The position numbers and the translations under genes are program-made. Under the pieces are notes generated by a model. That model was not told where the DNA came from. It saw only the letters and a list, made by a program, of their open reading frames with translations, and made no database searches. 64,000 bases of DNA from the NCBI GenBank assembly GCA_963924555.1, contig OZ004590.1:2457001-2521000 (forward strand), written 5' to 3'. Of this stretch, positions 3,001 through 12,000 are shown piece after piece (position 1 is the first letter of the stretch; each line of letters starts with the position of its first letter). This DNA comes from Crambe crambe. Lineage: Eukaryota; Porifera; Demospongiae; Poecilosclerida; Crambeidae.

Positions 3001-6000
3001 GCTGCAGTTGAACACTGGAGATAGGGAGGTTCTCTACTATGAGGCTCCAAGGGGCAAGCAGCAGTATATCAACCAGGAGGATGCTCAGCAAATCTCATGG
3101 TCGACTTGGACATGTGTACTGGGACCATCTGTGCAGGGGGTGTGGCCTGCATATACTGATGTTACCGATATCAATGCTTCTTGCGTGTCATGTGATGGTC
3201 AGGTAATCTCAACTGGTGACGACTTTGGCTATGTCAAGCTCTTCAAGTATCCGTCTTATGTGAGTGTATATTATGATATAGTAGAATGAGCTGTTCAGTG
3301 GTGAAGTCTGGACCATGTGCATGTCCCTATTATTGATACTGTGTACATATCTTATACAAGTAGACTCATGGACTCATGCTATAGCTGCATTCAGCAGCCA
3401 GTACACAGTAACCACTATCTTTGCTACTTGATCTATCTAGATCATGTAATTTCAGATGCAAAAAGTTCTGAGATTTTCTGCAGGTGCTGAATGACAAGTC
3501 ATGAGTGCAGCTAACACTTACCCAATAGTGCAGGCCCATACCCAGGGGGGTTCAGGGGTTAGATCGAACCCCCCTTTTTCAAATTGAATTTTAAACGTGA
3601 ACGCATACATCGCATGCCACATCATAAAAAATCGGTTAATTTTGTTCATGTGCATGAGCTAGCTCGAAGCAGAGAGAAAGAGAAGGTGTACTATAAGACT
3701 AACAAAGCCTATTGTCATTGTTTAGTTACCCCTAGGCTACTGAATTTATAGATCTATGGTGCCTGAAGTTATAAGCTAGCTCTGCTAAGTTCAGCTTGTA
3801 TCCAAGTCTTCTATAAAACTGTACAGGTAGAAGAAGTAGTACCATCTTCATCAGCTACTCATAATCTTCATGATTTTCCTGACTGCCTACAATTACCAGC
3901 TGCTAGTTAGCTAAAAATAGCATACGCAGATCTATGAAAAATGGGTGTGGTCAGGCAAAAGTGGAACCCCTCTTTCAGTATGGGCCTGTAGTGACATATT
4001 TCATCAGCATATATACACATGTATTATAGCTTTAAGCCTAATCTGTGTTCTTCTTTCTCTGCTCTCTTTGCCAGTCCAGTTTCTGCATGGCACCTTGCTT
4101 GTTGCCCTCTTAGCCAGCCTACAGACTTTACTCTTTGCCAGCCTTGGCTTACTACAGTTGCTCGTTGCTCTCTTTCCAGCTTAGGTTTACTGCAGTCTCT
4201 GGCACCTTGCTCATTGCTCTCAATCTTTGCCACTGTAGTCTCTGGCACCTTTCTTGTTGCTCTCTTGGCCTAGCCTTACTGTCCCTAGCTGTTCTCAATT
4301 AAGTCTCTGGCCTGGCACTTTAGTTTTCTATAGTTAAGTGACAAGCATGCCCTTATGTAGCAATTGACCTTTGAACTGCGACAGACACACGTAAAAGATG
4401 TTGATAACTCATTTGAATTGGTGACCCCCCCCCCCCCCCCCCCCGATCAATATTAATTAATTAATCGATCTCACAAGAGAACGCTGGCAGTCTGGTGCTC
4501 ATCCTTGGACTATTATAACTACGTACTTTTATTCACTCTAATTGGTTATAAATACACACACACAACTATTGTGGCTTAAAACTGTCTCCAAGTTCCAGTC
4601 TGGATAAAATCCATTCATTTCTTTCCGAGAAGTTTTAGAACATAAGGACCATACTCGCGGATATCCTTCATAATATTTTTCCACTTTTGAAGTTTGACAT
4701 GTTGCTCACCAGAAACGTTTTCTTTCATTATGTCACTTCCATCATCATTGGATTGCATCATACTGGCCATGATGTGATTCATCATGATTTCCAATATCTT
4801 ATCCTCATTATCCCTTTCAGCAGCAGCAAGAATCTCCACGGACGGCTCATCGCAAGGCTCAGCAAAAGGCTTAGCAGTTACTGCTAGCAAAGCACCAAGT
4901 AGAAGAATAATACCGAAGACAATCTTCATTATGAATCTCGATGATTTGCAGAAGAGTAGCTAGTTAGACGTCCAGTGAGTTAGGTTAAGAGTGACTGACC
5001 TGCAGCTAATCGAGAGCCGTTTTTATAGCATTCATAGCTGCATGGGTGGGGCAAATGCATGGGCTAGTAGCTATTCCAGCTATAGTGAAAGTACAGTAAG
5101 TTAGAATATATAAAACATGCCAGCTTGGGATAGCCATAGATGGTTTATACTGAAAATAATTCTTATAAGTTACTAACTGCCATTATCTCTACTAAACAAG
5201 TGCCGGACAAGCACATTCAATGTTTTGAAATCCCATGCAGTTGATAATCTGCCAATGCAGAATACAAGTCCAATCTTAAAGTGTAACAAATTAATAGCTG
5301 CATGCTATCATGGTTTAAGCAACTGAGTGAAGCACCAAGTTCATGTGTGTACAATAAAATACTCTCTGGCTCTTGCAGTCACTGTTCAGCAGTCAGTACA
5401 CGGTCACCACTCATTAATCAGAGAGTATGGTAGCCTCGTTCCCAGGCCCATTGAAATAGGGCCTGGTATACACTGATTGCAAATGCACAAGATTAAATTG
5501 TCATAATGACAGCAGTGGTTATTATGATGTAGAAATCAATACTATCACAGTAGGCTTGTCAAGAGCATCCCTCCACTATAGATGTGAACAGGGCTTCAGG
5601 ATCACAAAGAAAATACTGTCAGTGCAAAGGCTTGAGTCTGAAGCAAGAGATACCGTTTTGAGATGAGATGACCACCAATTTCACACCTCTCAGTCTCTTT
5701 CTATGAGTTTAAACCTGTCAACCATCAGAGCGATGAGTGGAGACAGCGCTGGTCTTCAAACTGCCAGCCAACCAGCCAGGAAGGGAAGCACTTGGTAGCA
5801 TAGACTCTTCCCAAGACTACCTGTGGGGAGACACACACGAAGACATCTTTGCCCTCGTAAATGGTTGAATGGACAGGCGCTGTTCTTCTTTCAAAGCAAG
5901 AACGAACCAAACTTCTCAAAAACGATCTTAAGGATTAACCACACCCATTATTCTTACGTAGTAGTAGAGGTATACGGATGATATTACAATGTAGTATACA

Positions 6001-9000: not shown

Positions 9001-12000
9001 CAACTATAATTATTGTAGCAAACTACAGTCAATAATCTAAAATTGTCTCATGGAAGTTCTGGTCCGGGTAACCTTTATTCATTTCTTTCCAAGACACCTA
9101 ACGTGTATACCATGCCTGAAACCACAACGAATAATCCTCCGTCCTGTGCGAGATCGTATAAATTTTCTCAGACCTCTGCGAACATGTGTAAGGAAACCCC
9201 TTTGAAGCTTGGCACATTGCTCACCAGAAGCGTTATTTTCTCCCATCATCATACTCATCAGATCATTACTTCCATCATCGTTGGATTGCATCACACTGGC
9301 CACAATGTGATTCATCATAGTATTCAATATCTTGTCTTCGTTCTTGGCTTCAGCAACAGCAGCAGCAATAACCTCATCATCAGAGGGCCCTTCAGCAAAA
9401 GGCTTAGCAGTTACTGCGGCTAGCAAAGCACCAAATATAAGAATAGTACTAAAGACAATCTTCATTTTGAATCTCGAAGATTTTCAAGAGAATATATAAA
9501 GAGGATATATATATATTTTTTGATTTCCAGTGAGGTATGTTAGGAGTGATTGACCTGCAGCTAATCCAGTGTCGTTTTTATATCATAAAAACATTGATAT
9601 AGCTATGGCTGTGTGGTGCAAATGGGGTTAGTATTGCTGTTAGCTAGGATGTTGTGCATTAAGTTGGAGTATAAACAAAGAGGGATAACACATCCTTAGC
9701 CATTATCTCTACTAAACAAGTGTCAAACGAATAAATAAACATTTGTAAATTTCACCTTCATAGTTTTATTTACTACAATCCCATGCAACTAATAACTTGA
9801 AAGTTACGTATTTCTGGTAGTATAAGCGATACTGTGTGCAGTCAACACAGCCATGCACAATGAAGGTATATGTATGTATGTAATACTGAGTATAGTGTGA
9901 CCAACTACTGCAGTATGTGGTTACGTGCTATATGCAGGCATTTGATTTCCCTTGAAGATACATGTGATATTTAAAAGATACACATGCATCACAAATAATT
10001 ATCTAGAAAGACTACACTAATCTAGATTGTGTTTACTATGTTTCAATTTTTGACTTGCAGTCAACAAAACCAATTGCTCTGATTTCCAACATAGTATGGT
10101 GTAAGTAGAACATGCAGAAACAGTTCATCAAGCTCCAAAACTGATAGCCACAATAGTTCATGTATTAGTTTGGTCTTTGTACACAGTTGATTTGTAATAA
10201 CCTTTATGCATTAATTTTTTTTGTTAGCTTTGGAAAGCATTTTAATAAAATAATTAGTTAGTAGCTATACAACTCAATATGTAGCTTTAGGTCAACAGAA
10301 GATTTAGTCAACCCAATAATTTTATTAGTATAAAATTATTACTCACAAGTTTGTTTTTCCAATACTGCAACTGATCAAGTTAGAGATCAATCAGCTTATT
10401 TCCTTTATCCAATTTCCTTTATCACAAAGTACACATACATAGCGGGGAAAAATATTTGTGTGCATGCATTAGGTGACTATACTGGCCTACAGTAATTAAG
10501 TGTGTAGCAAAACCCAATGTGTGGCTGGCTGACAGTTGAGATTATTTTGTGCACGTTTCGGCTGTACTTCTCTCTAAATGTTTGACTTTCTAAATGTTTG
10601 ACTTTTCATCCCACATAACTTTCATTTTGTACAACAGAGGGTTTGCATACCTATAAAACTTCTGAATATTTGTATCACTAGTTATTATTGAGTTATACAT
10701 CGTTATGTATGACCTTATGACCTTTCTGTATGATGGTTCTGTTGTGTAGGGTAAGCAAGCAAAGTGCCGTCAATATGTAGGACACTCTGCTCATGTGACC
10801 AACATCCGCTTCTCCTTTGATGACAAGAAACTCGTCTCCACTGGAGGAGCTGATACTGCAGTCATTGTGTGGCGGCATCAAGTGGGATCACGTGACCAGT
10901 CTGTTGACCAATCAGATGTCGTCACCTCACGTTCCTATACTTATATGAGTGAAGAGTCAGACACAGACTCAGAGGAAGAAGGTACGTATGTATATACATG
11001 CAGGTATGTACATGCAAATGCAAAATCCACATCATGTACATGTGGCTGCCACTAAGCGGTCACATGCACCTGGTCAAGTCAGGCACTAAGTAGGCACTAG
11101 GAGCCAGCGCTGGCAACCTCCTGGAGCCTTAAATCTGCATGCACTGCCTTGGCTTGTTCTCAATCTTGTAAGTGCCTCAGGTACATACTTTGTTGAATGA
11201 TCCAAAGAGGCTGGAGTCACAGGAAGGAATGGTAAGATTGTACTTGCTGCATAGCCTCTTTCTCCCTCTTCTCCAGCTCTTCAAAAGTGAAGCCTCTCGC
11301 TCTCTCAGTCACTCCTATCTTACCACCTCAGTACAACCCATATCATTAATGATATTCATTCATTTCAAAACAAACAATTCCAAGTAGCTATTGCTCGTCA
11401 CCAGACCCTCACGTTCAGGGCTGGCTGTGTCATGTGAAAAATGGTCCGACGGACCATTTCTCGCAATAAAAGCAGTTCGCTTGGACAAAAATTTGCAATG
11501 TAATTGATCCTCCTGTGCGAAGTTTGGTCCGGCCCACATTAGACGTCCATGTTTATCTAGAAGAAGTTTGCTGGATATACTGGAAGCAGTGTGCTGGTAG
11601 CTAGCCCTTCCCCTAGCCCCTAGCCCTAGCCAAGCCCTTTGGCCGTACAACCTTAGCCTTGAAGTTACAAAATGCACACCAGTAATTCCATACACCTAGG
11701 TGTGGTCACAATACTGTGTGAAAACAACCTCCATACCCCTAGGTGTGGTCACATGACCACTACCCCTAGCCCTAGCCCTAGCCCTAGCCTTAGCCAAGCC
11801 CTTTGGCCATACAACCCTAGCCTTGGAGTTATGAAATCCACACCACCAGTAGCTACCATTGACGGACCACTTTTATCAGTGAAGGACCAATTTTATCGAT
11901 AAAAATAGTCCGACTGGACTGAAAATAATAGTCCTGGTGGACCAATTTTTGCCGGACCAAATTTTTTGTGACAGCTGCACCAGACTAGCCCAAATGTGGA

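Follow-up and report, generated by a model that had tools for sequence, protein, structure and literature searches.

What do three small secreted-type peptide genes encode that lie antisense within a single intron of an EML-type WD40 gene, and do they stand alone in their genome? The genes are found in a window of 64,000 bases (the whole stretch of DNA analysed here, C13:2457001-2521000) of an assembly comprising 143,139,886 bases in 119 contigs. Overall, we found at least 26 open-frame genes with the same architecture on three large contigs, and we put the probability at about three in four that their products are precursors in which an acidic propiece masks a cationic, in most cases amphipathic, peptide of antimicrobial host defence.

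The host could be placed through its cathepsins. Peptidase_C1 gave 121 genome matches, and seven short stretches were read at the active site. Serine replaces the active-site cysteine in four of these (CGASYAFS, CGCSYAFA, CGSSYAFS and CCSSYAFS; L081, L083, L084, L087), cysteine is kept in L085 and L086, and L082 carries glycine. To our knowledge silicateins are confined to sponges, and the silicatein-type serine cathepsins thus indicate a siliceous sponge as host. Serine at this cathepsin site (S26) is given as the mark of silicateins, which are linked to Porifera, in PMC11740617.

The window genes belong to a larger family

An initial annotation of the window had proposed three antisense secreted-type peptide genes in one EML intron, and this layout was borne out. 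The list of open reading frames (ORFs) has three intronless frames on the minus strand (Table 1), each starting with MKIVF, ending with LGKK and running from a hydrophobic N-terminus through an acidic propiece with a common core to a basic tail. The surrounding intron is real: positions 131-223 of the EML_2 beta-propeller profile stop at window position 3259 and positions 224-266 resume at 10750, the borders read GTGAGT (donor) and TTGTGTAG (acceptor), and the exon downstream is open in the expected frame. Repeat analysis of the window found the families D1, D2, D4 and D5 in all three copies and an upstream stretch, D6, in copies 1 and 3, identifying the copies as diverged duplicates.

Protein searches within the same genome returned 22 matches for copy 1 and 39 for a member on C11; the matches of copy 1 include itself and four paralogues with 66-70% identity. 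Genes were listed by a start of MK[ITS], a hydrophobic N-terminus and a length of at least 95 residues. The resulting count of 26 is a lower bound because the first pass of the searches scores the best candidates only, and a stricter listing filter keeps 9 genes. By these selection criteria a signal peptide is present in all 26, judged by hydrophobicity and not by a predictor. The coding sequence is uninterrupted in the family genes. With 26 open-frame genes of this architecture in the genome, the layout of the window trio goes beyond chance. A tree of the pre-pro regions unites the trio with the pair at C17:6.64-6.68 Mb and the gene at C11:5.19 Mb in one group (support 0.984), in which the trio appears as a small branch of the family.

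Several matches were excluded from these counts: C11:5676929, with a stop within the aligned stretch; C11:5645047, a truncated copy (E 0.0026); a family at C16:6.32 Mb (E 0.17 in the forward and 0.24 in the reverse search); a Cys-rich precursor at C11:6639431 (E 0.0017); and weak matches on C3, C9 and C20 (E 0.18 or worse). The C16 locus (L016, C16:6321827-6323225) consists of two head-to-head precursors (MKFLLSVFIALG...), acidic and then weakly basic, with a third copy containing a stop, and represents a separate family of similar plan. The Cys-rich precursor (L057, C11:6639431-6639832) has 133 residues, acidic in the middle and rich in Cys and Arg in the tail (4 Cys there), gave no Pfam match at E 0.01 and is possibly a further antimicrobial precursor.

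Profile searches of a collection of 5.8 billion proteins yielded 28 proteins: the window's own (P0001), one from a 916-base contig (P0004, source lgn) and 26 from ENA contigs. Apart from P0001, 23 of the 27 reach at least 85% to a gene on the list of 26. Of the rest, P0027 is 99% identical to the excluded copy C11:5676929, P0016 and P0017 reach 80-83% to family genes, and P0026 reaches 54%. We infer that the ENA proteins stem from a separate assembly, either of this species or of one very close to it; the contig of P0004 may be genomic or RNA. No clear relatives from elsewhere were found among the 5.8 billion proteins, and the family is likely restricted to its lineage, the sponge coverage of the collection being uncertain. 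In scans of 17 members no Pfam match passed a cut-off and NCBIfam matches were weak and scattered (best E 0.0037), and a PDB profile search with the family gave no match. A family-profile scan of IMG/VR left 0 confirmed out of 34 pattern matches. The family had been annotated as probably undescribed, and we found no described sponge family of this kind in searches of an open-licence library.

Propiece charge tracks tail charge

Net charges over the 26 genes range from -3 to -49 in the propiece and from +6 to +53 in the tail, acidic then basic in 26/26, with one precursor reaching -49/+48. In this listing the cut between the two parts was set where the charge difference is maximal (r -0.86). 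Because a maximising cut could favour the result, the test was repeated with the cut tied to a conserved motif (A[KRQ].[QKR] in most genes; in two genes it was set by hand). Propiece and tail charge then correlate at a raw r of -0.87, and independent contrasts give r -0.76 for 26 genes (sign-flip P 0.0105) and r -0.79 for 24 genes (P 0.0074), the latter without two two-module genes. Propiece charge therefore tracks tail charge, also after correction for kinship. In the two genes left out, L008 and L010 (C11:5.64-5.66 Mb), the acid-plus-tail module is duplicated across an SGGSNTT joint, and one precursor may yield two peptides.

The last acidic residue lies 0-4 residues ahead of the tail motif; in L006 it falls inside the motif, and L032 has one extra acidic residue within it. 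With the junction placed at the last acidic residue by construction, it reads E|Q in four genes, including all three window copies. An amidation-type C-terminus is found in 22/26 genes, again including the window copies (shuffled mean 3.8, maximum 10 in 1000 shuffles), as G in two, GK in four and GKK or GKKK in sixteen; four genes are without it. The arminin-like layout that the initial annotation had described for the trio is thus recovered in the family at large. Similarly, in 22/26 tails a stretch of 18 residues exceeds shuffles in amphipathicity at the 5% level, among them those of copy 1 (0.02) and copy 3 (0.037). Tails are up to 126 residues long and contain 0-3 Cys, with one Cys in 20/26.

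Enzymes for processing such precursors seem to be present in the genome. All 13 PDB matches of a PHM exon are peptidylglycine alpha-amidating monooxygenase (PAM), and a convertase-like gene, with a P-domain match and Cys-rich repeats, seems to be a furin-type convertase.

Recent duplicates keep tail charge and change tail sequence

We computed the ratio of non-synonymous to synonymous change (pN/pS) for 14 pairs and pooled six non-overlapping recent duplicate pairs. An independent seventh pair, L040/L041, was kept out of the pool, one member being a two-module gene (tail 1.05, propiece 0.41). Pooled pN/pS, with bootstrap ranges, was 0.78 (0.15-2.64) in the signal peptide, 0.25 (0.13-0.44) in the propiece and 1.51 (0.93-3.01) in the tail. 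The corresponding non-synonymous to synonymous counts were 68:14 in the tail versus 30:26 in the pre-pro region (Fisher P 0.00026). Taken pair by pair, the tail ratio was above 1 in two (3.96 and 1.37), and two pooled pairs had no synonymous tail change (L036/L037, for example, has ten non-synonymous changes and none synonymous).

Since relaxed constraint could also give a ratio near 1, neutral change was simulated. The absolute change in tail charge summed over the six pairs was 5, compared with a simulated mean of 19.0, and 0/500 simulations were as low. No acidic residues occur in the tails of these pairs. In the six pooled pairs, tail sequence is thus rather free and tail charge is held nearly fixed.

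Host defence as the probable function

Taken together, these features point to masked host-defence peptides. The acidic propiece would neutralise and mask the tail in the secretory path, acting as an internal charge partner, and a cut near the last acidic residue would release the tail. At the E|Q junction of the three window genes this would permit the peptide to start with pyro-Glu. At the other end, the action of a carboxypeptidase and of PAM might convert ...LGKK to ...Leu-amide. The released peptide would target microbial membranes via charge and amphipathicity and not via a fixed sequence. Repeated duplication may have supplied a varied set of peptides against the microbes that the sponge filters and hosts, or for selecting among them.

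A number of observations weigh against this function. The charge correlation weakens in independent contrasts once the two longest genes are also removed (22 genes, r -0.54, P 0.023). Copy 2 has a short tail of 20 residues that is not significantly amphipathic in the shuffle test (0.45), and a TATA box that is not intact (Table 1). AlphaFold2 predicted helices in copy 3 at low confidence (mean predicted local distance difference test 56, predicted template modelling score 0.24), and no PDB entry matched a second exon of copper-monooxygenase type. Per-pair tail ratios fall below 1 in L028/L027 (0.62) and L003/L004 (0.52), and with a lower bootstrap bound of 0.93 for the pooled tail, positive selection is not proven. 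The initial annotation had read the pre-pro part as conserved and the mature part as variable, and had suggested comparing dN/dS between propiece and tail. The contrast holds in the pooled pairs and fails in the window trio alone, where omega is 0.40-0.65 in the tail and 0.43-0.73 in the propiece, with no excess of tail change. Nor are differences between assemblies concentrated in the tail (20/2162 pre-pro versus 13/1212 tail residues in 24 pairs, one of which is the window's own protein). Finally, strict NF-kB and GATA patterns were not enriched upstream of the 26 genes.

Amidated signalling peptides cut from a propeptide, whether neuropeptide-like or for settlement or behaviour, are the best of the alternatives, and an unlikely one. 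The hydrophobic N-terminus, the amidation-type ends, the PAM-like exon and the convertase-like gene would suit them equally, as would window tails that evolve no faster than their propieces. So would a shared ending: the tails of the window copies had been described as strongly different with LGKK at every end, and LGKK is indeed common to all, but copies 1 and 2 have YGPY...LGKK in common, and the pair at C17:6.64-6.68 Mb carries YGPYL.YLGKK. In signalling precursors, however, conservation normally lies in the mature peptide, and the pooled pairs show the opposite. A signalling role is less likely because the tail is their least conserved part, and the retention of its net charge without its sequence argues against a receptor ligand. 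Tails of up to 126 residues and +53 also fit poorly, and no dibasic-flanked repeats of one short peptide were seen in the family precursors; two genes have the whole module duplicated. Of the two functions first proposed, antimicrobial or signalling, the pooled pairs thus favour the former.

Polycations that serve the sponge matrix or silica deposition and owe their solubility to the acidic propiece are less probable still. The host does have silicatein-type cathepsins, the tails are long and Lys/Arg-rich, and copy 2 bears a weak likeness to DMP1 (E 0.009, under the curated cut-off). On the other hand, no Pfam family was found above cut-off in the members scanned, and both the frequency of amphipathic stretches and the fast change of tails at near-fixed charge would be unexpected of a structural component.

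A broader proposal can be made, tentatively and with considerably more doubt: independently of Hydra, a siliceous sponge may have evolved a fast-changing set of many genes for cationic peptides locked in charge, with matched propieces as charge counterweight, to select and police its microbes. A gain of charge in the tail would then be met by an opposite gain in the propiece. Many sponges host complex microbial communities. With at least 26 genes of Hydra-like precursor design, it becomes testable whether sponges shape their microbiome by peptides, as Hydra does with arminins, and whether early animals evolved this design on more than one occasion. Both the charge counterweight and the evolution of charge-fixed, sequence-free tails are general predictions on how such precursors work. 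According to a recent review, the ASABF of Suberites is among few well-characterised sponge antimicrobial peptides, the others being mainly cyclic peptides and depsipeptides (PMC12466427).

Likeness to arminins and other peptide families

Arminins have a signal peptide, an acidic N-terminal region, a basic C-terminal region and a C-terminal Gly (PMC12013895), and are described as restricted strictly to Hydra; H. vulgaris AEP has nine paralogues (PMC10945409). The sponge family shares with them the signal peptide, anionic propiece, cationic tail and C-terminal Gly for amidation (GKK in arminin 1a; PMC12011183), as well as the placing of most paralogues in one locus. It differs in its sponge host, outside the published Hydra-only range, in tails of up to 126 residues mostly with one Cys, and in its number of at least 26 genes versus nine.

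True membership in the arminin family, through an ancestor common with Hydra (and with placozoan arminin-like precursors), nevertheless seems quite improbable. In a comparison of mature arminin 1a only with the tails, using 2000 shuffled arminins, the best match joined the tail of copy 1 and the arminin-1a end ...APYIPFVVKTVGKK (score 42), a score reached by 1/2000 shuffles against that tail alone. This match and the identical order of parts speak for common descent. Allowing the best of 26 tails, however, 126/2000 shuffled arminins reach 42 (134/2000 with GKK kept), and other single tails fare far worse (33 of 2000 shuffles for copy 2, 636 for copy 3 and 286 for L004). The profile searches of the protein collection likewise returned only close allies of the own genes, and the published range is Hydra-only. 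The sponge family would thus work like an arminin in plan; the relation to arminins that had been suggested would rest on the mature-peptide match, which is not significant, and kinship is not shown.

Trichoplax has arminin-like precursors, AMP1-AMP4, with a signal peptide, a highly acidic N-terminal region, a basic C-terminal region and a C-terminal Gly; D/E cleavage motifs are named by the authors, and the likeness is drawn here from their published description (PMC12013895). Hydra periculins also combine an anionic N-terminal with a cationic C-terminal part in a clustered, expanded family (PMC12466427, PMC10945409). In contrast to the sponge family, periculin-1 has 8 Cys, versus 0-3 per sponge tail, and periculin genes have an exon-intron structure. 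The ASABF-type peptide of Suberites domuncula is also a sponge antimicrobial peptide, with a cysteine-stabilised alpha-beta (CS-alpha-beta) fold for which the sponge tails have too few Cys (PMC12466427). The cysteine pattern of the defensins or ASABF (CS-alpha-beta) is lacking in the family, with 0-3 tail Cys and no Pfam family above cut-off.

That the genes are old functionless pseudogenes nested in an intron is hardly credible given 26 open frames, shared TATA boxes and, in recent pairs, constraint on the propiece and on the charge of the tail, even with the altered TATA of copy 2, the stop in C11:5676929, the truncation of C11:5645047 and the four genes lacking an amidation-type end.

Upstream and downstream elements and neighbouring sequences

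A duplicated promoter and poly(A) context had been proposed for the window copies. The poly(A) context GTGAATAAAAGTA is common to 3/3 copies. The promoter part stands for two of the three: TATAAAAA is intact only in copies 1 and 3, and copy 2 has TACAAAAA at the corresponding place. Across the family, TATA[AT]A occurs within 200 bases upstream of 24/26 genes, and the exact TATAAAAG is strongly enriched within 300 bases upstream (16/26 genes versus 0.8 expected). Poly(A)-type hexamers lie within 300 bases downstream of just 12/26 genes, so that the poly(A) part of the finding cannot be extended to the whole family. A 24-base upstream element is repeated in the window copies, and its core AGAGATAA is found only in these three of the 26 genes (up to 1200 bases upstream, same strand).

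Table 1. Positions of the window features and of the family loci in the genome
Feature	Position	Strand	Remark
Intron of EML-type WD40 gene	3260..10749	+	contains all three peptide genes in antisense; EML_2 profile, splice sites, downstream frame
Peptide gene copy 1, 104 aa	4615..4929	-	signal peptide ~4867-4929, propiece ~4699-4866, tail and stop ~4615-4698
Peptide gene copy 2, 103 aa	7332..7643	-	signal peptide ~7581-7643, propiece ~7395-7580, tail and stop ~7332-7394
Peptide gene copy 3, 128 aa	9079..9465	-	signal peptide ~9403-9465, propiece ~9214-9402, tail and stop ~9079-9213
TATA box, copy 1	5020..5027	-	98 bases 5' of ATG
TATA place, copy 2	7728..7736	-	reads TACAAAAAC, TATA not intact
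TATA box, copy 3	9575..9582	-	117 bases 5' of ATG
24-base upstream element CACTTGTTTAGTAGAGATAATGGC, copy 1	5179..5202	-	
24-base upstream element CACTTGTTTAGTAGAGATAATGGC, copy 2	7912..7935	-	
24-base upstream element CACTTGTTTAGTAGAGATAATGGC, copy 3	9699..9722	-	
Poly(A) signal AATAAA, copy 1	4528..4533	-	
Poly(A) signal AATAAA, copy 2	7237..7242	-	
Poly(A) signal AATAAA, copy 3	8949..8954	-	
Family locus	window (C13)		three genes
Family locus	C17:6.64-6.68 Mb		two genes
Family locus	C17:5.16 Mb		two genes
Family locus	C11:5.19 Mb		one gene
Family locus	C11:5.445-5.449 Mb		two genes
Family locus	C11:5.62-5.69 Mb		fifteen genes
Family locus	C11:6.42 Mb		one gene

In the motif scan upstream of the 26 genes, with controls resampled at first order, C/EBP and STAT showed no enrichment and AP-1 was absent. 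A loose kB pattern showed a mild excess within 300 bases (7 sites in 4/26 genes versus 2.0 sites expected), an IRF-like pattern was counted 3 times versus 0.9 within 600 bases, and CCAAT was depleted within 300 bases.

Further features were noted around the peptide genes. Between copies 1 and 2, window positions 6754-7000 and 6212-6451 hold an inverted repeat with 54-base arms (93%) as well as a direct repeat, and resemble small transposon remains. EML-type WD40 exons form a long tandem array on C13 at about 2.23-2.50 Mb, among the matches listed. An uninterrupted secreted-type ORF of 165 residues (13417-13914, plus strand) contains a Tlde1 domain (Pfam PF10908, E 4.4e-7, 30.8 bits versus a cut-off of 30.1) and is 67-71% identical to four further copies at 3.11-3.29 Mb of this contig. 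Tlde1 is a domain of peptidoglycan-acting bacterial effectors, and this ORF, about 4 kb from the peptide genes, is a candidate gene of bacterial origin. Finally, a 351-residue ORF at 62869-63924 (minus strand) has Jacalin lectin domains in two stretches (E 1.8e-29).

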